Virus record (IMG/VR): IMGVR_UViG_3300044638_001566
Location: 1-27,256 of that record
Reading direction: 5' to 3' (one strand)
DNA length: 27,256 nt
Source: a virus
Positions 3,984-15,493 of the stretch are shown one piece after another. Both the position numbers and the translations under genes were made by a program. Every line of letters starts with the position of its first letter. Position 1 is the stretch's first letter. Below the pieces are notes generated by a model. It saw only the letters and a program-made list of their open reading frames with translations. It did not search any database and was not told where the DNA came from.

Positions 3984-6005
3984 ATGGCTGAAAATACTCA
4001 TATTTTAACTGGTGTGCCTGATTCGTTTATCGACAGGTTATCAACTGCTGATTTGTCAGCAATAGCGAATAACACCTACGAGAGCATATCTCCACAGGGT
4101 ATGGCTATTATTAATGATGGCAAAACAAACCTCGGCGCAGGTGAAATGCTGGACACTGGCACAGGCATTACAGGCGCTGTTGTAGGCACAGCTTTAGGCA
4201 GTGCTTTTGGGCCTCCAGGCATGATGGTAGGAGGAACTGTAGGAGGTGCGGTTGGAACATATGCTGGTGAAGTTATAGAAGATGTTGTAGCTGGTAGAGG
4301 TTTAAACTTAGGCTTTGGAAGAGGAGGAGCAGCAAGAGAGGCTTCTATCTCAGGAGCTATTGATCTAGGCACTGCTGGTGTGTTTAAGGGTTTTAAACTG
4401 CTTAAAGATGCTTTTCATATGGACTCTTCGTCTTTATTAAACATCTTTAGAAACACAGCGCCTACACCTCCGACAATGAATCAGGTGCAGATGAGTGACT
4501 TACCCGCAAGGAGTCCTCAGTCTCTCTTACAGACTCAAGATTTCTTGATGGAAAGAGGAGGTACTTTGTTTCCTTCTCAGACAGGTATGCAAGGACGCTT
4601 AGGCGCTATTGGTGAATCCTTAGCTAACGTAGGCTCCTTTTCCAGTAATCAAATGCAAGGGGTTATAGAGAACAACGCAAGAATTATCTCTGATTCTTTT
4701 AATCAAATGATAAGAGGCGTAGACCCTGCTCTTGCACGTTCACAAGAAGGTGTAGGTGCTGCAATATCACAGATAGTGGGTTCAGCTGAAACAGACTTAA
4801 AAGCATATTTTAGAACTTCTTTAGACGCTATAAAAAGAGAAGCAGGCAATAACCTAGTTCCTGTTGACGGTATATCTAAAACTATTGACAACATTTTTAC
4901 AGACAGCACTAACAGACTTATTGTTAATCTTTCTGACAATACTAAAAACATGCTCAAGAAAGCTCAAAAGGATTTGGGCTATGAAAGCGTTCTTATAAAC
5001 CCTGCTACAAATAACCCGTTCAGGGGAAGTAAAAATGCAGGCATGTCTGACTTGATAGAATATCAACAAAGACTAACTCTAGAGATTAGTAATTTAAGAC
5101 CTAGTATTAACAATCCTATGGGCGACGCTACAGCCTATAGAGAGTTGTCAATGATTGAAAACCAAATAAAAGCCTCTATTGCAGACACAATGGAAAAGAT
5201 AAATCCAGCTGCTGCCGCTGCTTATAGAGCTTTAAATAAGCAATATGGAGAAACATTAAATAACCTGTATCCTCCTCTTGTGGAATCCAACTTAGTTAGG
5301 GCCGGTGAAATAGGTGCTTACTCCCAGCTCGGTAGAATGATGACCACATCAAGTGACGCATCAAAGTTAAATGCTGTAATGAATAGCATTGATACTGCGT
5401 TTGCACAGGTCAAACGCTCAGGTGGTCAAATACTAGGAGACATTACAACTCCTGAAAGAGCTAGAGCATTAATATCACAGTCTTACTTAGCTAATACATT
5501 TGCTGCTAATGCTAATGGAACTCTAGACATCTACAAAATAAGAGGAATTATTGATGAACTAAATGAGCCTAGTACGGCCATGTTGTATAGAACAGTACTT
5601 GGTGGCAACTACAACAACTTTAAAGGTTTGGTCAGTGCGTTAGAAAACTCCTCTAAAAATGTTTCCCAAGACTTCCTTAGTTTAAGTGTACGTGGTAGAG
5701 AGATTTCAACTGCACTCGGTAGTGCTTCTGTTCTCGGGGGCTTGGCAGGTACTGCTGGCTACGCCGCTATGGGGCCAGAAGGGGCTATGCTGGGCGCTGT
5801 AGGTATCTTTGGTATTCCTTATGTTCTGGCTAAGGTGGCTACAAACCCTGAAGCAACCAGGAGATTAATCCTGTTAGCATCTGGTGTTAATAGAGGAGCT
5901 GTTACAAGTCCTTCATTCATAGCAGCACAAGCTGTTAAAGTGTTAGAGGCTTTGCCAGAAGCAGATAGAAATGACATACGGGACATGGGCTACACAGGCT
6001 ATTAA
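3984..6005 (+). CDS. Putative DNA-ejection/internal virion protein with glycine-zipper segments (673 aa)
   Basis: It begins 2 nt after the preceding stop. Two glycine/alanine-rich hydrophobic segments stand out: residues 61-95 (GITGAVVGTALGS... through VGGAVGTYAG), a clear glycine-zipper pattern, and residues 578-616 (LGSASVLGGLAGTAGYAAMG... to IPYVLA). Segments of this type insert into membranes, which fits a protein ejected from the capsid to build a channel across the cell envelope, as T7 gp16 and gp15 do. The middle is predicted helical. No lytic transglycosylase motif (SLT glutamate context) could be recognised, unlike T7 gp16. It is the last large gene of this structural arm and is followed by two small genes and the terminator. 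Role inferred from position and hydrophobicity. Confidence 0.55.
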   Translation: MAENTHILTGVPDSFIDRLSTADLSAIANNTYESISPQGMAIINDGKTNLGAGEMLDTGTGITGAVVGTALGSAFGPPGMMVGGTVGGAVGTYAGEVIEDVVAGRGLNLGFGRGGAAREASISGAIDLGTAGVFKGFKLLKDAFHMDSSSLLNIFRNTAPTPPTMNQVQMSDLPARSPQSLLQTQDFLMERGGTLFPSQTGMQGRLGAIGESLANVGSFSSNQMQGVIENNARIISDSFNQMIRGVDPALARSQEGVGAAISQIVGSAETDLKAYFRTSLDAIKREAGNNLVPVDGISKTIDNIFTDSTNRLIVNLSDNTKNMLKKAQKDLGYESVLINPATNNPFRGSKNAGMSDLIEYQQRLTLEISNLRPSINNPMGDATAYRELSMIENQIKASIADTMEKINPAAAAAYRALNKQYGETLNNLYPPLVESNLVRAGEIGAYSQLGRMMTTSSDASKLNAVMNSIDTAFAQVKRSGGQILGDITTPERARALISQSYLANTFAANANGTLDIYKIRGIIDELNEPSTAMLYRTVLGGNYNNFKGLVSALENSSKNVSQDFLSLSVRGREISTALGSASVLGGLAGTAGYAAMGPEGAMLGAVGIFGIPYVLAKVATNPEATRRLILLASGVNRGAVTSPSFIAAQAVKVLEALPEADRNDIRDMGYTGY

Positions 6006-6926: not shown

Positions 6927-8819
6927 TTAGATTTCACAAGCTCCTGCAACACACGCCAGCGTCTGCACACCCTCAGTGTTGTCTCGCTGCTCTTTCAAGT
7001 CCCAGTTAAACTGCGTAGGGAAGTTCTTAGCAGTTGCTTCATACTCTTCCTTCGTTATAGGCTCATACGGTGCTTGCTTGTATACGTGATCGCTATACGG
7101 TAGAAAGCTGATACCGCTGATCTTATCAAACTTGTTATACACCCACTGCCCAATCTCTAGAAACTCTGTATCCCTGTAGTAGCATGTCATTGAGGGCTTA
7201 TGCTCACACCAATGATCCTGGTAAATCTCCCACAACTCTAGCTGCTCTTTAGCAGACATCTCAGAAGCCACTACAGCGTCCTCTGGAGCCTTCTTAGGGA
7301 AGGAGAATACCAGAGCATTCTTAGACATCACATCAGCCTCCCACGGCACTCCAGCGTCCTTCAGGATGTCACACAGAGGGTCTGTAGAGTCTGCTCGTAC
7401 CCTGCGTATGTAATAGCTGCTGTATCGTGGGTGGATGCCGCTGGCGCTGTCAACCAACTGGCTGACTGTACCGGACGGTTTGATGCAAGTGATTGCTGTA
7501 GATTGATTGATACCAAGCATCTCAGCATATTCCTTGTTAACCTCTACAGAGCAGAGCTTCATACGCTCAAGCAAACTCTTTAAGTCTTCTTTGTTACCTC
7601 TACCACTGAGCAGGACGTTATCCATAATACCCGTCAGAGATACACCCAGCAATCGTTCCTCTTCAGTGTTCTTACGCCAGATGCTACGCACATAACGGAA
7701 GTTGGTTAACGTAGCCTGTAACGTACCTAAGATTGTTGCAATGCGTACCTTCCGCATCAAAGACTCTGGGGTGTCATCAGGACGTACCACAACCTCTGAC
7801 AGGTTACACAGCTGTGCAGGACGCAAGATAATCTCAGAGCAAGGGTTCGTACCAAACTCTTTAGTAGCGTCTCTACGTCCATTCTTAGCAGCCTGCTTCT
7901 GACTAGCCACTCGCGAGAACAGACCACGCTCTCCAGCCTTAGACTTGTACATCTCCTGCCACTCGTTTAAGAAGGCTTCAAAGTCTGGCTTCTCTGTGTA
8001 GCTTGCGCTGTTGTTTGATAACGCTCTGTGCGGTGCAGTCATCCACCACTCACCCTGCTTACAACGCCTGATACGATCATCAGAGAGGTTAGACAGGCTA
8101 ATCAATGCTGACCTACGTACACCGCCTACAACAACGATGTCAGCAATCTTGCAGCAGATGTCGTGACACTCTAGTGAATTGAGCCTACGTCCCTTCGCTC
8201 CTCTGAATACTTCAACGCAGAAGCGGAAAAGGTCTTCAAGAGGTGCTGGGCCAGAAGCTCTACCTCCGAAAGTCTTAAGGGGTGCTCCTGATGGTCGTAT
8301 TGCTGACAAGTCCCATTTTGGTACTTTACCTGCATAGAGCAACGATATAAGTTCTCTGAACGATGAGGCCCATCCAACTTTGCTATCTGCAACCCCAATG
8401 ACAGTATCTGTAGCATGGAACTCCTCCGACACCTCTGGTAAATGTGCTATGTATTGTCTCTCTACAGAGAAGCCTACACCTGTACCACACATGAGAATAT
8501 ACATCATCTCATCGAATGCTCTAGGGTGATCTACAGCAAGGTAGCTACAGTTAAAGCCTGCAATGTTATCCTTCTCAAGAGCTTTACCAGCCGTCATAAG
8601 CGCTCTCATAGAAGGCATTACTTCTAAGTTGAGGATAGCTTGACGACACTCCTCAAAGACTTCACCAGGTATCTGTGGAGCTTTGCTACCAAAGAAGCTG
8701 ATGTATCTATCTACTGTCTCTTCCCAAGTCTCTCTACGCTCAAGCTCTGGTATGTAACGAGCATATCGACTGCGGTGTATATACGTTGAATAACTGTCCA
8801 TCATTGTTACTTCCCTCAT
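6927..8819 (-). CDS. nrdJ: Class II (adenosylcobalamin-dependent) ribonucleoside-triphosphate reductase
   Basis: Converts ribonucleoside triphosphates to deoxyribonucleotides for phage DNA synthesis, using a cobalamin-generated thiyl radical. In the 630-residue reading, Cys91 (FNCSYL) and Cys338 (AQLCNL) match the redox pair, NPCSEI (325-330) carries the radical Cys327 with Asn325 and Glu329, and the C-terminus ACVAGACEI supplies the shuttle pair Cys623/Cys628. The spacings (11 between 327 and 338, 5 between 623 and 628) are those of the monomeric Lactobacillus leichmannii enzyme (408/419 and 731/736). CIKPSGTVSQ (445-454) and CGTGVGF (111-117) are further family signatures. The ATG at 8819 forms an ATGA overlap with the upstream gene's stop, but GAGGGAAG lies just inside it, ahead of Met6/Met7, so translation may start at 8804 or 8801. 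Activity depends on host or environmental B12. Confidence 0.95.
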   Translation of the reverse strand: MREVTMMDSYSTYIHRSRYARYIPELERRETWEETVDRYISFFGSKAPQIPGEVFEECRQAILNLEVMPSMRALMTAGKALEKDNIAGFNCSYLAVDHPRAFDEMMYILMCGTGVGFSVERQYIAHLPEVSEEFHATDTVIGVADSKVGWASSFRELISLLYAGKVPKWDLSAIRPSGAPLKTFGGRASGPAPLEDLFRFCVEVFRGAKGRRLNSLECHDICCKIADIVVVGGVRRSALISLSNLSDDRIRRCKQGEWWMTAPHRALSNNSASYTEKPDFEAFLNEWQEMYKSKAGERGLFSRVASQKQAAKNGRRDATKEFGTNPCSEIILRPAQLCNLSEVVVRPDDTPESLMRKVRIATILGTLQATLTNFRYVRSIWRKNTEEERLLGVSLTGIMDNVLLSGRGNKEDLKSLLERMKLCSVEVNKEYAEMLGINQSTAITCIKPSGTVSQLVDSASGIHPRYSSYYIRRVRADSTDPLCDILKDAGVPWEADVMSKNALVFSFPKKAPEDAVVASEMSAKEQLELWEIYQDHWCEHKPSMTCYYRDTEFLEIGQWVYNKFDKISGISFLPYSDHVYKQAPYEPITKEEYEATAKNFPTQFNWDLKEQRDNTEGVQTLACVAGACEI

Positions 8820-11086: not shown

Positions 11087-11161
11087 AAAGACCTACAGCA
11101 AAAGACTTTAGACCGCGCAACCCCTGCGAATAGTTAAGTTAAGTTAATTAGCTGCTGTAGG
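11087..11161 (-). terminator. Long-loop hairpin with T-run between HNH and mazG genes
   Basis: Read on the minus strand, CCTACAGCA (11161-11153) pairs perfectly with TGCTGTAGG (11100-11092), and the second arm is followed by TCTTTTTATT. The loop is long (52 nt) and contains a smaller CGCA/TGCG stem. The first arm is part of the HNH gene's last codons. It has the layout of an intrinsic terminator but an unusually large loop, so it is only a candidate, perhaps giving partial termination. Confidence 0.35.
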
Positions 11162-11524
11162 TTTCCTCTGTTTACGCTCGCTAGCTGTCTTAGTCTTGTG
11201 ACAATCTTTACACAACACTTGTAAGCCGTCTGCTTCACAGAAGAGATTCTGAACAAAAGCAGGGAGGTCTTTGTAGTCCTTCAGAGTCCCTGCCGGTTTA
11301 ATGTGATCCACTTGAACTTCATTACCTCTGTAGTATTTGTCGCACTCTGCACAGAGGTATTCGTATCTATGTCTATGTCCTTCTACAGTCTTCTCTGCTG
11401 CCTTCTTAGCTGCAAACTTCACTGGATATCTGTTGAACGCTGAACGCAGTGCAGAGCGTATGAATTGGAAGTAGCGTGATTTAGTCCACTTATCACCAGC
11501 GTGTGTCTTCTCAGCCCTCATCAT
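11144..11524 (-). CDS. HNH endonuclease
   Basis: About 126 residues from the tandem ATGATG at 11524/11521; an upstream in-frame extension to 11602 lies inside the exonuclease gene and is unlikely. The nuclease core is LCAEC (first CxxC), VQVDHIKPAG (catalytic His of the betabetaalpha-metal fold) and LCKDCHKTKTASE (second CxxC plus His and Lys). That is a zinc-stabilised HNH domain. The N-terminus (KWTKSRYFQFIRSALRSAF) is basic and helical and probably binds DNA. In T7-like phages an endonuclease near the exonuclease and SSB genes helps degrade host DNA or resolve branches. A free-standing homing endonuclease is the alternative. Confidence 0.85.
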   Translation of the reverse strand: MMRAEKTHAGDKWTKSRYFQFIRSALRSAFNRYPVKFAAKKAAEKTVEGHRHRYEYLCAECDKYYRGNEVQVDHIKPAGTLKDYKDLPAFVQNLFCEADGLQVLCKDCHKTKTASERKQRKPTAAN

Positions 11525-12200
11525 CGTTACTCTTATAGCGTTTAAAGTTAGGAGCCTCCCACATCTGACCTTCGTAACGCTGTAGCCACAAGAGCTGTCC
11601 ATTCTCTAGCACTCTCTCAGCGCCTAAGACCTCGACACAAGCGTTGTACATCTCCACTTCTGTCTTACCCTCTAGCAGCTTCCTAGCCTTTACTGGCCCT
11701 ATACCCATTGCACCGATGATGTTGTCTACTCTGTCTCCTACAAGTATTTGCATATAGAAGTTTAGCAGACCTTCTTCTTCATTGATTGTGTAGTGGATAT
11801 GTTTAACAAAGTTGTAGTGCTTACCAGGTACTTGGTCAAAGTCTTTGTCGATACTCACTATAACGCTCTGTGGCAGCGTTGTAGCCATTGTAGCGATCAA
11901 GTCATCTGCCTCTATACCCTCAGTCTCTATCGCTTGCCAGTAGCTCTTGAGCCTATCTCTAATGGCTTGGTAATGCACAGGCTTCTCAGCCTTCCTGTTG
12001 CCCTTGTAAGGAGCTGTCACTGCAATCTCTTTGCGGTAGTTGCCTCTACCCGAGATGATTACCATGTAGTCGGTATCGTCAAAGCGTAGCAAGATATCTG
12101 CAATGCTTTTATCCAGTGTCATCAGGCATATTTCTTCAGGCTCTGCGTTGCATGAGAAGCCAACTCTGTAGCAGAAGATGTCTCCATCAATTAGTAACAT
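11511..12200 (-). CDS. 5'-3' exonuclease (FEN/T5 exonuclease family)
   Basis: A 229-residue flap-endonuclease-type enzyme that removes RNA primers and degrades DNA from 5' ends. The metal-binding acidic residues are LIDGD (Asp5, Asp7), EGIEADD (Glu97, Asp99, Asp100), SIDKDFD (Asp118, Asp120, Asp122) and VGDRVDN (Asp156, Asp159). YKGNR (65-69) is the conserved Tyr-Lys arch-base motif, and IGAMGIGPVKARKLLEG (162-178) is the helix-hairpin-helix. This is the compact one-domain form, like T7 gp6 or T5 D15, without a polymerase. AGGAGTTAAC precedes the ATG. Its end overlaps the HNH gene start by 14 nt. Confidence 0.93.
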   Translation of the reverse strand: MLLIDGDIFCYRVGFSCNAEPEEICLMTLDKSIADILLRFDDTDYMVIISGRGNYRKEIAVTAPYKGNRKAEKPVHYQAIRDRLKSYWQAIETEGIEADDLIATMATTLPQSVIVSIDKDFDQVPGKHYNFVKHIHYTINEEEGLLNFYMQILVGDRVDNIIGAMGIGPVKARKLLEGKTEVEMYNACVEVLGAERVLENGQLLWLQRYEGQMWEAPNFKRYKSNDDEG

Positions 12201-12953: not shown

Positions 12954-13829
12954 CTATTTATTTAATATATTGAATGCTGTTGCTGCCACAACTGGAACCT
13001 GTCCATTCCCAATGGCTTTAAGTCTGTCCACCCTAGCGGCCACCCCATTAGCCACTCTACCCACGTTGGGTTCAATGTCCCAGCCGCCCACTCTGCCTTT
13101 GTTGTTCCTCGTATCCGTGGGTCGTTGCCTAGCATCTTCTGCATCTTGCCGTTTGGAGTCCCTGCTGCATCTTCGTTCGCTGACGGTGTTAACCAGTTTT
13201 CCATATTGCTCACCTGATCTCTCAAGTTCGCTGGCTTGCTCCTGCCAGGTCTTGTCACTGTCGCCTCCCTGTGCAAAGCCTCTGCTGACTTTGGCGGTAG
13301 TTTGTCCATAGTCGTTGGTGTTGCCCACAAGCCAGAACCTGTCGCGTTTATGGGGCGCTCCGCAGTCTGCCGCTGATACAATACACCACTGACAGTCATA
13401 CCCCAACGCGGTAAGGTCACTGATGACCAATGCAGCTCCTCGTTTAATAAGGAGTGGACTGTTCTCCACGTAGACAAGTCTAGGTCGTACTTCACCGACA
13501 ATTCTTGCCATGTGTTTCCACATACTTGATTTCTCTCCGTCAATTCCTGCGCCTCGTCCTGCGCTGGATATGTCTTGGCAAGGAAATCCTCCCGATACCA
13601 CATCAACAAGTCCTCGCCACGGTCTGCCGTCAAAGGTTTGAACATCATCCCAAATCGGGAAAGGCGGGAGAATTTTGTCATTTTGTCTTGCGGCAAGTAC
13701 ACAAGCTGGGTAGGGTTCCCACTCAACGGCGCAGATTGTTTTCCATCCAAGTAGGTGTCCTCCGAGTATTCCTCCACCGGCTCCTGCGAACAACGCCATT
13801 TCTCGTAAAGTGCTTCGCTGATTATCCAT
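12954..13829 (-). CDS. C5-cytosine DNA methyltransferase (Dcm-like)
   Basis: Transfers a methyl group from S-adenosylmethionine to cytosine C5, probably to protect phage DNA from restriction. Motif I is ALFAGAGGGILGG, motif IV GGFPCQDIS holds the catalytic Cys, motif VI is VENSP, motif VIII is CGAPHKRDRFWLVG, and GNGQVPVVAATAFNIL is motif X. The start chosen (ATG 13829) follows AGGAG by 10 nt and lies 14 nt after the polymerase stop. A TTG at 13862 inside the polymerase gene would lengthen it, and ATG 13799 (MALFAGAGG) would shorten it. The region between motifs VIII and X is short and polar (about 80 residues), so the target-recognition part is small or atypical. A second coding frame lies inside this gene (see next entry). 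Recognition sequence unknown. Confidence 0.93.
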   Translation of the reverse strand: MDNQRSTLREMALFAGAGGGILGGHLLGWKTICAVEWEPYPACVLAARQNDKILPPFPIWDDVQTFDGRPWRGLVDVVSGGFPCQDISSAGRGAGIDGEKSSMWKHMARIVGEVRPRLVYVENSPLLIKRGAALVISDLTALGYDCQWCIVSAADCGAPHKRDRFWLVGNTNDYGQTTAKVSRGFAQGGDSDKTWQEQASELERSGEQYGKLVNTVSERRCSRDSKRQDAEDARQRPTDTRNNKGRVGGWDIEPNVGRVANGVAARVDRLKAIGNGQVPVVAATAFNILNK

Positions 13830-13837
13830 CCCATCAT
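12962..13837 (-). CDS. Nested 291-codon ORF inside the methyltransferase gene (+1 frame, same strand)
   Basis: The frame begins at ATGATG (13837/13834), 6 nt after the polymerase stop and 5 nt after AGGAG from the second ATG, and runs without a stop to 12962, wholly within the methyltransferase gene. The translation is not random-looking: EDFLAKTYPAQDEAQELTE (84-101) lies over Dcm motif IV, SGLWATPTTMDKLPPKS (168-184) over motif VIII, and NPTWVEWLMGWPLGWTDL (256-273) over the segment before motif X, followed by DRFQLWQQQH. I recall proteins with the same FLAKT...LWPTPT...WLMGWPxGWTDL order as hypothetical or 'DNA methylase' entries in phages and proteobacteria. It may be a true overprinted partner of the methyltransferase, or an ORF kept open and apparently conserved only because the Dcm frame is. 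Not verified. Confidence 0.5.
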   Translation of the reverse strand: MMGWIISEALYEKWRCSQEPVEEYSEDTYLDGKQSAPLSGNPTQLVYLPQDKMTKFSRLSRFGMMFKPLTADRGEDLLMWYREDFLAKTYPAQDEAQELTERNQVCGNTWQELSVKYDLDLSTWRTVHSLLNEELHWSSVTLPRWGMTVSGVLYQRQTAERPINATGSGLWATPTTMDKLPPKSAEALHREATVTRPGRSKPANLRDQVSNMENWLTPSANEDAAGTPNGKMQKMLGNDPRIRGTTKAEWAAGTLNPTWVEWLMGWPLGWTDLKPLGMDRFQLWQQQHSIY

Positions 13838-13843
13838 TACTCC

Positions 13844-15493
13844 TCAATGCGTCTCCGCCCAATTGTTACCTACTTTAAACTCTCCAGTCAGGGGGCATTT
13901 CATAGCAAAGAACTCCCCCGCCTCCTTAATCGACTGCACACCCAGCCTGCCTACAGTGTCAGCAAACCACTCATCCACTTCAATCTGCCATTCATCATGC
14001 ACGTTGGCTACAAACTGTGCAGGTATGTTGTACGCCTTCAACTTCTGATCCAGCAGCACTAGCGCCTGCTTCATCACAATAGCGCCAGCACCTTGCAATA
14101 ATGTATTCAGAGCACTATGAGTGCTTCTTACACGTAGCTTGCGCCCATCTAGACCTGTCAGTACACCTTTGGCGCTGTCTTTCTCTACAGCCTCTCTGAG
14201 GCGCTTTAGAGCAGGTGTATTGCGTAGAAACTTATCAATCAACTGCTGTCCCTCTCTAGCACCACCACCGACAATGCTGCCGATCTTTGGAGAGCCTGCA
14301 CCGTACAAGAATGCGTAGATGAATGTCTTAGCCTGACTTCTTTCTGTCAGCCCTGCTGCCTTCTGATTAGCTGTGTGTATGTCGCCACTGATAACTTCAT
14401 TGGTGTAGTTGTCATCACCCATGTAGTGTGCAAGCATCCGTAGCTCAAGACCACTAGCGTCTATACCTACCAACTTCTTACCTTCATCAACTATCCATAA
14501 GGCTCTGCACTCTGTACCGTACAGCGCACCTACTGAGGGTATCTGTGCCATGTTGGGTGTACTATGTGTCATCCTACCCGTGACAGCACCGTTACTAATC
14601 ACTCTGCCATGCACTCTGCCAGTGTCTCTTACGGCTTTGAGCCAGCTATCAATCTGTGTTGTCCTCTTCTGCAACATCAAATACTCTTGAATCAACTTAG
14701 CCTCTGGTATGTCGATACCGTCCAGCACTGTCTCATCAACGATGTCGTTACCTTTCTCAGTCTGCTTATCAAACTTAGCTCCGAGTGCTATCAGTCTCTG
14801 TGCTATCTGCTGACGGCTACCAGGATTAAACACTGTCACCTTATCCTTCAGAGTCTTTCCAGTCTTCTCACTCACTCGCTGCTCTACAATCGGTGGAAAC
14901 ACTGCTTGCAACTGCTTCTCTATACCAATCATCTTAGAGCAGAGTTGAGCATACAATGCATTTGCATTACCTACATCCAGCTTAAACCCTGTGCGTTCCT
15001 GCTGCGTTGTGATCTTAGCTACAGCGTGTTCGAGTTCTCTGCAATTGCCGCTAAAGCCTTCTTTATTCATGTTAACGACAAGCCAATGGAACACCATCGT
15101 TGTCAGCTCGACATCACGCTGGCAATACTCCAGCATCTGGGGCGTCAGCCCCCCGTCAAAGTCTGTGAAGTCACCTTTAGCAAACCCAAACTGAGCACCC
15201 CATGAGGCCAACGAGTGTCCACCGTCTCTGCTAGGATTGTATAGCCTAGATAACAACAGCGTATCAATGTACTCTTTAGTAGACAGATCGACACCCCATA
15301 CCTTGCGCAGCACTGGAGCGTCAAAGCCTATGATGTTGTGTCCAGCTACAGAGTCATAGCTCTCCAACAGTTTCCTTAATGGAGACGGTTCAGTGAACGT
15401 AGACAGTTCTTTAGTGTCAACGTCCTGGGCTACGCAGCACCATATTGTATCGTGCGTCAAATTCGTCTCTATATCTATCATCAGCGTTTTCAT
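13844..15493 (-). CDS. Family A DNA polymerase, T7-like, with 3'-5' exonuclease
   Basis: The replicative polymerase, 549 residues, shorter than T7 gp5 (704). The proofreading domain has Exo I MIDIETN (Asp7, Glu9), Exo II GHNIIGFDAP (Asn53, Asp58) and Exo III YCQRD (Tyr123, Asp127). The polymerase domain has TGRMTHSTPNMAQIP (305-319), motif A DASGLELR (345-352; Asp345, Glu350, Arg352), motif B RSQAKTFIYAFLYG (385-398; Arg385, Lys389, Tyr393) and motif C VHDEW (His499, Asp500, Glu501). Tyr393 is at the position of E. coli Pol I Phe762 and T7 Tyr526. The start MKTLMIDIET is firmly set by Exo I, although the preceding gene then overlaps by 77 nt. Whether it uses thioredoxin as T7 does is unclear. 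Confidence 0.96.
   Translation of the reverse strand: MKTLMIDIETNLTHDTIWCCVAQDVDTKELSTFTEPSPLRKLLESYDSVAGHNIIGFDAPVLRKVWGVDLSTKEYIDTLLLSRLYNPSRDGGHSLASWGAQFGFAKGDFTDFDGGLTPQMLEYCQRDVELTTMVFHWLVVNMNKEGFSGNCRELEHAVAKITTQQERTGFKLDVGNANALYAQLCSKMIGIEKQLQAVFPPIVEQRVSEKTGKTLKDKVTVFNPGSRQQIAQRLIALGAKFDKQTEKGNDIVDETVLDGIDIPEAKLIQEYLMLQKRTTQIDSWLKAVRDTGRVHGRVISNGAVTGRMTHSTPNMAQIPSVGALYGTECRALWIVDEGKKLVGIDASGLELRMLAHYMGDDNYTNEVISGDIHTANQKAAGLTERSQAKTFIYAFLYGAGSPKIGSIVGGGAREGQQLIDKFLRNTPALKRLREAVEKDSAKGVLTGLDGRKLRVRSTHSALNTLLQGAGAIVMKQALVLLDQKLKAYNIPAQFVANVHDEWQIEVDEWFADTVGRLGVQSIKEAGEFFAMKCPLTGEFKVGNNWAETH

Follow-up and report, generated by a model that had tools for sequence, protein, structure and literature searches.

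C5 cytosine methyltransferases made of two polypeptides are the closest described systems to the locus analyzed here. In one of them, M.EcoHK31I, the β chain is reportedly encoded inside the α gene in another reading frame, with both chains needed. The genes of a second, M.AquI, are not known to be nested in one another. M.EcoHK31I recognizes YGGCCR (Lee, Kam and Shaw 1995, cited in PMC3404938) and M.AquI CYCGRG, and the two divide the conserved methyltransferase motifs differently: M.EcoHK31I is described with motifs I–VIII and X in its large subunit and motif IX in its small subunit, its predicted recognition domain being placed in the large subunit and not in β, and M.AquI with motifs I–VIII in α and motifs IX–X in β (PMC3404938).

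The window, the whole stretch of DNA analyzed here, is a 27,256-base virus record (IMGVR_UViG_3300044638_001566). On its minus strand, directly after a family A DNA polymerase gene that ends at 13844, lie two frames offset by +1, an outer frame of 302 codons counted from TTG and an inner frame of 291 codons, which confirms an earlier reading made from the sequence alone, that two same-strand frames stay open together here for about 290 codons. The positions of the frames, of their motifs and of the start region are collected in the table below; from its placement, the GAGGAG may be one ribosome-site-like element serving the position before both the outer and the inner start. We propose that the two frames are, very probably, the α and β chains of one two-chain C5 methyltransferase in the fashion of M.EcoHK31I, a known precedent that the sequence-only reading had not foreseen. 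Both frames are conserved, β is selected as a protein, and motif IX is absent from α and present in β. Elsewhere in the window, an HNH endonuclease frame (11144–11602, minus strand) overlaps the 5′-3′ exonuclease gene (11511–12200) by ~90 bases. A ribonucleotide reductase gene (6927–8819, minus strand) shows weak matches to the B12-dependent (class II) type, and the phage that carries it encodes, besides the family A polymerase, a DnaB-like helicase-primase and an SU10/P22-like portal.

Table. Features of the overlapping methyltransferase locus, in positions of the window
Feature	Position	Strand	Assignment or remark	Basis
Outer frame	12954..13862	-	α, C5 cytosine methyltransferase catalytic subunit: large domain and motif X	PF00145, phrog_363, AlphaFold, Foldseek
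Outer motif I, FAGAGGG	13770..13790	-		alignment A4
Outer motif IV, GGFPCQ	13575..13592	-	with catalytic Cys	alignment A4, invariant P76 C77
Outer motif VI, ENSP	13455..13466	-		alignment A4, invariant E115 N116
Outer motif VIII, GAPHKRDRFWLV	13326..13361	-		alignment A4
Outer VIII-to-X stretch	13083..13322	-	neutral, predicted disordered	dN/dS 1.02 [0.96–1.08]; pLDDT ~40–50
Outer motif X, RVDRLKAIGNGQVPVVAATAFNILNK	12957..13034	-		alignment A4; terminal helix pLDDT >90
Inner frame, +1 of outer	12962..13837	-	β, proposed recognition/motif IX subunit, 291 aa from ATG	open frame, phrog_1008, purifying selection
Inner "TN" segment, SWRTVHSLL..PRWGMTVSG..GSGLWATPT	13313..13519	-	overprints motifs VI–VIII	profile search
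Inner variable region	13082..13312	-	proposed target-recognition part	indel-rich among homologues; inner dN/dS 0.53
Inner motif IX, GTLNPTWVEWLMGWPLGWT	13025..13081	-		hhalign
Likely outer start ATG	13827..13829	-	starts few bases apart, likewise in homologues	sequence
Inner ATGs, two candidates	13835–13837 and 13832–13834	-		sequence
GAGGAG, Shine-Dalgarno-like	13840..13845	-	single site ahead of both starts; overlaps DNA polymerase stop codon	sequence

The inner protein, searched against IMG/VR, had its 80 best loci at 40–60% identity; with the window and three phage records added, these form a set of 84 loci. In this set, composed like our other locus collections of best-scoring matches and not of a random sample, the +1 frame contains no stop in 23,638 overlapping codons (84/84 loci open), while the control frames contain 1,405 stops (+2) and 369–798 stops (antisense). 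Synonymous shuffling of the outer frame of the window left the inner frame open in 0 of 500 trials, with 9.2 stops expected; over the 84 loci, the mean chance of an open inner frame was 0.4%, and 5.4 stops were expected per locus where none was seen. Loci gathered with the outer protein alone, a collection not selected for the inner frame, have an inner gene without internal stop in 76 of 77 cases, a count that reflects our own reading of the listed stop positions, with those upstream of the inner start or at the inner terminus set aside. The sole locus of the 77 with a stop inside the inner frame is L144, at ~3443.

The association also holds in cellular genomes. The inner profile overlaps the outer one in 80 of 80 loci from bacterial and archaeal species genomes, and in Pseudomonadota the inner protein occurs in 24 of 398 species genomes, always over a catalytic frame. 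Stand-alone inner homologues, to which the sequence-only reading had looked as a check, did not emerge: among the 80 genome loci and the matches from the 398 Pseudomonadota genomes, every one examined overlaps a catalytic frame. Of four distant plasmid methyltransferases chosen as negative controls, three (L307–L309) carry a +1 partner, and L306, a long single-chain Dcm with a classical motif IX in frame, is alone in having none and is the one clear negative control. Several bacterial-genome copies have outer stops together with an open inner frame. In L197 (1426–2215) and L217 (4954–5920) a single in-frame outer stop lies just past motif VIII, reflecting either decay or a functional truncation of α, and in L202, L205, L218 and L170 single stops lie within the outer catalytic part, probably owing to decaying prophages or sequencing errors.

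An open inner frame might nonetheless be a by-product, open and conserved merely because the overlying methyltransferase is. When outer codons were redrawn so as to preserve the outer protein, 180 inner stops were expected over 87 independent pairs, and 0 were seen. Inner identity over motifs I–VIII, at 0.695, lies barely above the 0.667 obtained under the same outer-preserving null, a result that fits a by-product. Selection on the two frames does not. We estimated dN/dS with our own simplified OLGenie-like count of substitutions by their effect in both frames, bootstrapped over 83 pairs. By this count, whose absolute ratios are rough because positions at which a change is silent in both frames are close to saturation, motifs I–VIII are strongly constrained in the outer frame (0.16–0.22) and moderately constrained in the inner frame (0.62–0.68 as NN/NS, or 0.29–0.40 by a second ratio); in the stretch that separates VIII from X, the outer frame evolves neutrally (1.02 [0.96–1.08]) and the inner frame under constraint (0.53 [0.46–0.60]); over motif X both frames are near 0.32. 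Purifying selection on the inner frame is therefore seen in every region. The inner start codon is, moreover, fixed at a synonymous outer site. In a conserved outer Asn-Glu-Leu, Asn is encoded by AAT in 155 of 156 loci, as against 45% AAT gene-wide, this codon being needed because it creates the inner start ATG; Glu is encoded by GAG in 149 of 156 loci (38% gene-wide), and the codon preceding the Asn varies (ATG, GTG, TTG, TTA, CTT). We thus reject the by-product, which had been the main alternative of the sequence-only reading and to which we give almost no credence, since the inner frame is constrained where the outer evolves neutrally. Collectively, the open frames, the purifying selection, the fixed start and the co-occurrence in genome loci support the overprinted gene, kept across phages, that the same reading had suggested.

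The outer protein matches PF00145 in Pfam (E 9e-31) and phrog_363 in PHROGs (E 6e-65), and it shows the motif order of C5 cytosine methyltransferases: I, IV (PCQ), VI (EN), VIII and X. Residues P76 C77, E115 N116, R155 and G267 N268 are invariant in 113 aligned sequences. In the AlphaFold model, the core (residues 1–170) has pLDDT mostly >90, ~90 residues fall to pLDDT 40–50 where a recognition domain is expected, and motif X forms a confident last helix. Foldseek matches the model to the large domain of M.HhaI (E 8e-14, ~172 columns), with the match confined to residues 13–186 of α; by AlphaFold and by Foldseek comparison with M.HhaI, the outer chain is missing the small domain that would hold a recognition region and motif IX. 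The outer frame alone does not qualify as a single-chain C5 methyltransferase, the M.HhaI match being partial and the linker disordered and neutral. The impression gained from the sequence that the outer frame is weakest exactly where the inner one is conserved was therefore correct, and the neutral ratio and low pLDDT of that stretch now quantify it.

The inner protein has no match in Pfam or NCBIfam and matches phrog_1008 in PHROGs (E 1e-19). The inner motifs that the sequence-only reading had singled out are present and conserved in homologue alignments, and matches to a profile of the TN segment reach E 2e-22 in distant loci. The inner LNPxWVEWLMGWPxGWT aligns with the in-frame motif IX of actinophage methyltransferases (hhalign, 92.5% probability, E 5e-7), enzymes that have motifs IX and X in one frame. 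The region ahead of the inner motif IX varies in length and sequence between homologues and, to judge from these features, appears to resemble the target-recognition regions of methyltransferases. Modeled alone, β reaches a pLDDT of 59 and a pTM of 0.36, and no structural match to the model was found; thus, the small-domain fold of β stays a proposal. A PDB sequence search with the inner profile gave no matches, nor did direct profile comparison of the inner with the outer protein. In L229, where the catalytic part can be joined to the inner frame, the joined reading barely raised Pfam, NCBIfam or PDB scores, indicating that sequence profiles do not recognize the recognition region.

With no recognizable fold or Pfam family of its own, β might be a real overprinted protein of unrelated role, such as a separately acting anti-restriction factor or a regulator, with nothing but its DNA in common with α. 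However, β carries the motif IX that α is missing and is never found apart from a catalytic frame, and we regard an unrelated role as improbable. The sequence-only reading had offered two partner roles for the inner protein: that of a specificity partner is favored because motif IX and the variable stretch leading to it from VIII both lie in the inner frame, while that of a separate anti-restriction factor found no support.

Separate profiles for the catalytic core, the TN segment, motif IX and motif X show how these parts are distributed between the frames of relatives. Wherever the TN segment was found together with a catalytic frame, it occupies the +1 frame. Three arrangements are seen for motifs IX and X: IX in the inner frame with X in the outer, as in the window and most relatives; both inner, as in L229 (a Spirochaetia MAG), L238 (Paraburkholderia) and the near-identical L268–L273; and both outer, as in Gordonia phage CheeseTouch (L252) and most of its relatives, the actinophages L257–L267 among them. 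Past motif VIII, the outer frame of L229 and L238 is full of stops, as would be expected if only the inner frame matters there. PHROG profiles agree, in that the IX–X end of the inner protein of L229 matches phrog_363, the Dcm family (E 0.0018). Such frame exchanges are the pattern expected if two frames build one enzyme, and they stand against both the by-product and the protein of unrelated role.

Along the DNA, the segments with a function follow the order outer-inner-outer (outer-inner in L229 and L238), so the same enzyme could conceivably be a single polypeptide and not two subunits. Programmed frameshifting would then switch translation to the inner frame once motif VIII is passed and return it to the outer frame ahead of motif X. 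This would require two opposite shifts, though, and the product would be missing the constrained segment of β over motifs I–VIII; β also has its own conserved start. We consider frameshifting very unlikely. Four further loci depart from the three arrangements or from their spacing. In L212 (4885–5984) the catalytic and inner frames exchange at ~5200–5311, as though a single-base frameshift crossed both genes. In L323 (1359–2109) the frames of motifs IX and X are not those expected from the position of the inner segment, and a decayed copy or a fourth arrangement is possible. In the actinophage-type relatives L285 and L290, ~500 bases separate the catalytic part from the TN segment; an insertion comparable to the published ShiLan element (PMC11855218) may account for them.

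The two-chain reading, to which we return here, draws on the open +1 frames, the selection on the inner frame, its fixed start, the motif IX in β and the frame swaps, and is supported by the similar division of motifs in the published two-chain enzymes M.EcoHK31I and M.AquI (PMC3404938). The outer frame would yield α, an S-adenosylmethionine-binding catalytic large domain (motifs I–VIII) joined by an unfolded linker to the motif X helix. The inner frame would yield β by separate initiation at its own ATG near the outer start, and β would supply the variable target-recognition region and motif IX, that is, the small domain missing from α. Together, α and β would assemble into a sequence-specific enzyme that methylates phage cytosines and probably guards the phage DNA against host restriction. 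No partner restriction enzyme was recognized for the window methyltransferase. Counted against this reading are the modest inner constraint over motifs I–VIII, the poor fold of β when modeled alone and the published placement of the M.EcoHK31I recognition domain in the large subunit.

The arrangement reaches well beyond the window. It is present in phages of Salmonella, Acinetobacter, Pseudomonas, Vibrio, Klebsiella, Stenotrophomonas and Microcystis, in Paenibacillus and Lacticaseibacillus phages, in the coliphages K1H and N15, and on plasmids of Leptospira, Bacteroides, a cyanobacterium and the archaeon Methanomethylovorans. On balance, and with some reserve, we favor the view that these loci form a large and ancient class of C5 methyltransferases in which the recognition half is permanently overprinted on its own catalytic half and never a separate gene, found in phages, prophages and plasmids across several bacterial phyla and as far as an archaeal plasmid, with motifs IX and X moved between frames by lineage. 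If so, few long same-strand gene overlaps in prokaryotes may be as widespread. A good many of the phage "Dcm" genes now listed as single orphan methyltransferases may be half an enzyme, in which case assays of α by itself would fail or mislead, and the search for specificity would be aimed at the wrong protein. The pair also offers a natural system for the study of overlapping genes, with one segment under inner-only constraint, one mainly under outer constraint, and lineages in which motifs change frame; and the many examples make the mechanism of a rarely discussed biochemical precedent testable.

Some GenBank records already annotate both frames, so the overlap has been noticed case by case. 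This is so in Paenibacillus larvae phages (e.g., Bloom, BLOOM_56/57) and in Escherichia phage K1H, where the frames are named "putative C-specific methylase" and "putative Mte8-like protein." No joint mechanism proposed for the GenBank-annotated pairs was found, nor, within the open-licence literature, a paper describing the overlap in phages or as a class. The PHROG families of both frames (363, outer; 1008, inner) are named "DNA methyltransferase," names that are silent on overlap or subunit role, although that of phrog_1008 already points to a methyltransferase for the inner frame. The window locus is a further example of a known, barely described kind that is far more widespread than we found described.

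Compared with M.EcoHK31I, the window locus has the same division of motifs, its large chain holding I–VIII and X and its small chain IX, and the same layout as is reported for the precedent, with the small chain encoded inside the large-chain gene in another frame; the likeness is one of motif division and gene layout. The M.EcoHK31I β is reportedly shorter than the 291-aa β of the window, which is nearly coextensive with α. In addition, the variable constrained region of the window lies in β, in contrast to the published recognition domain in α. The M.AquI-like split, with IX and X both in the small chain, is not that of the window, where motif X is in the outer frame and the two frames are nearly coextensive, but it is found in the relatives L229, L238 and L268–L273.
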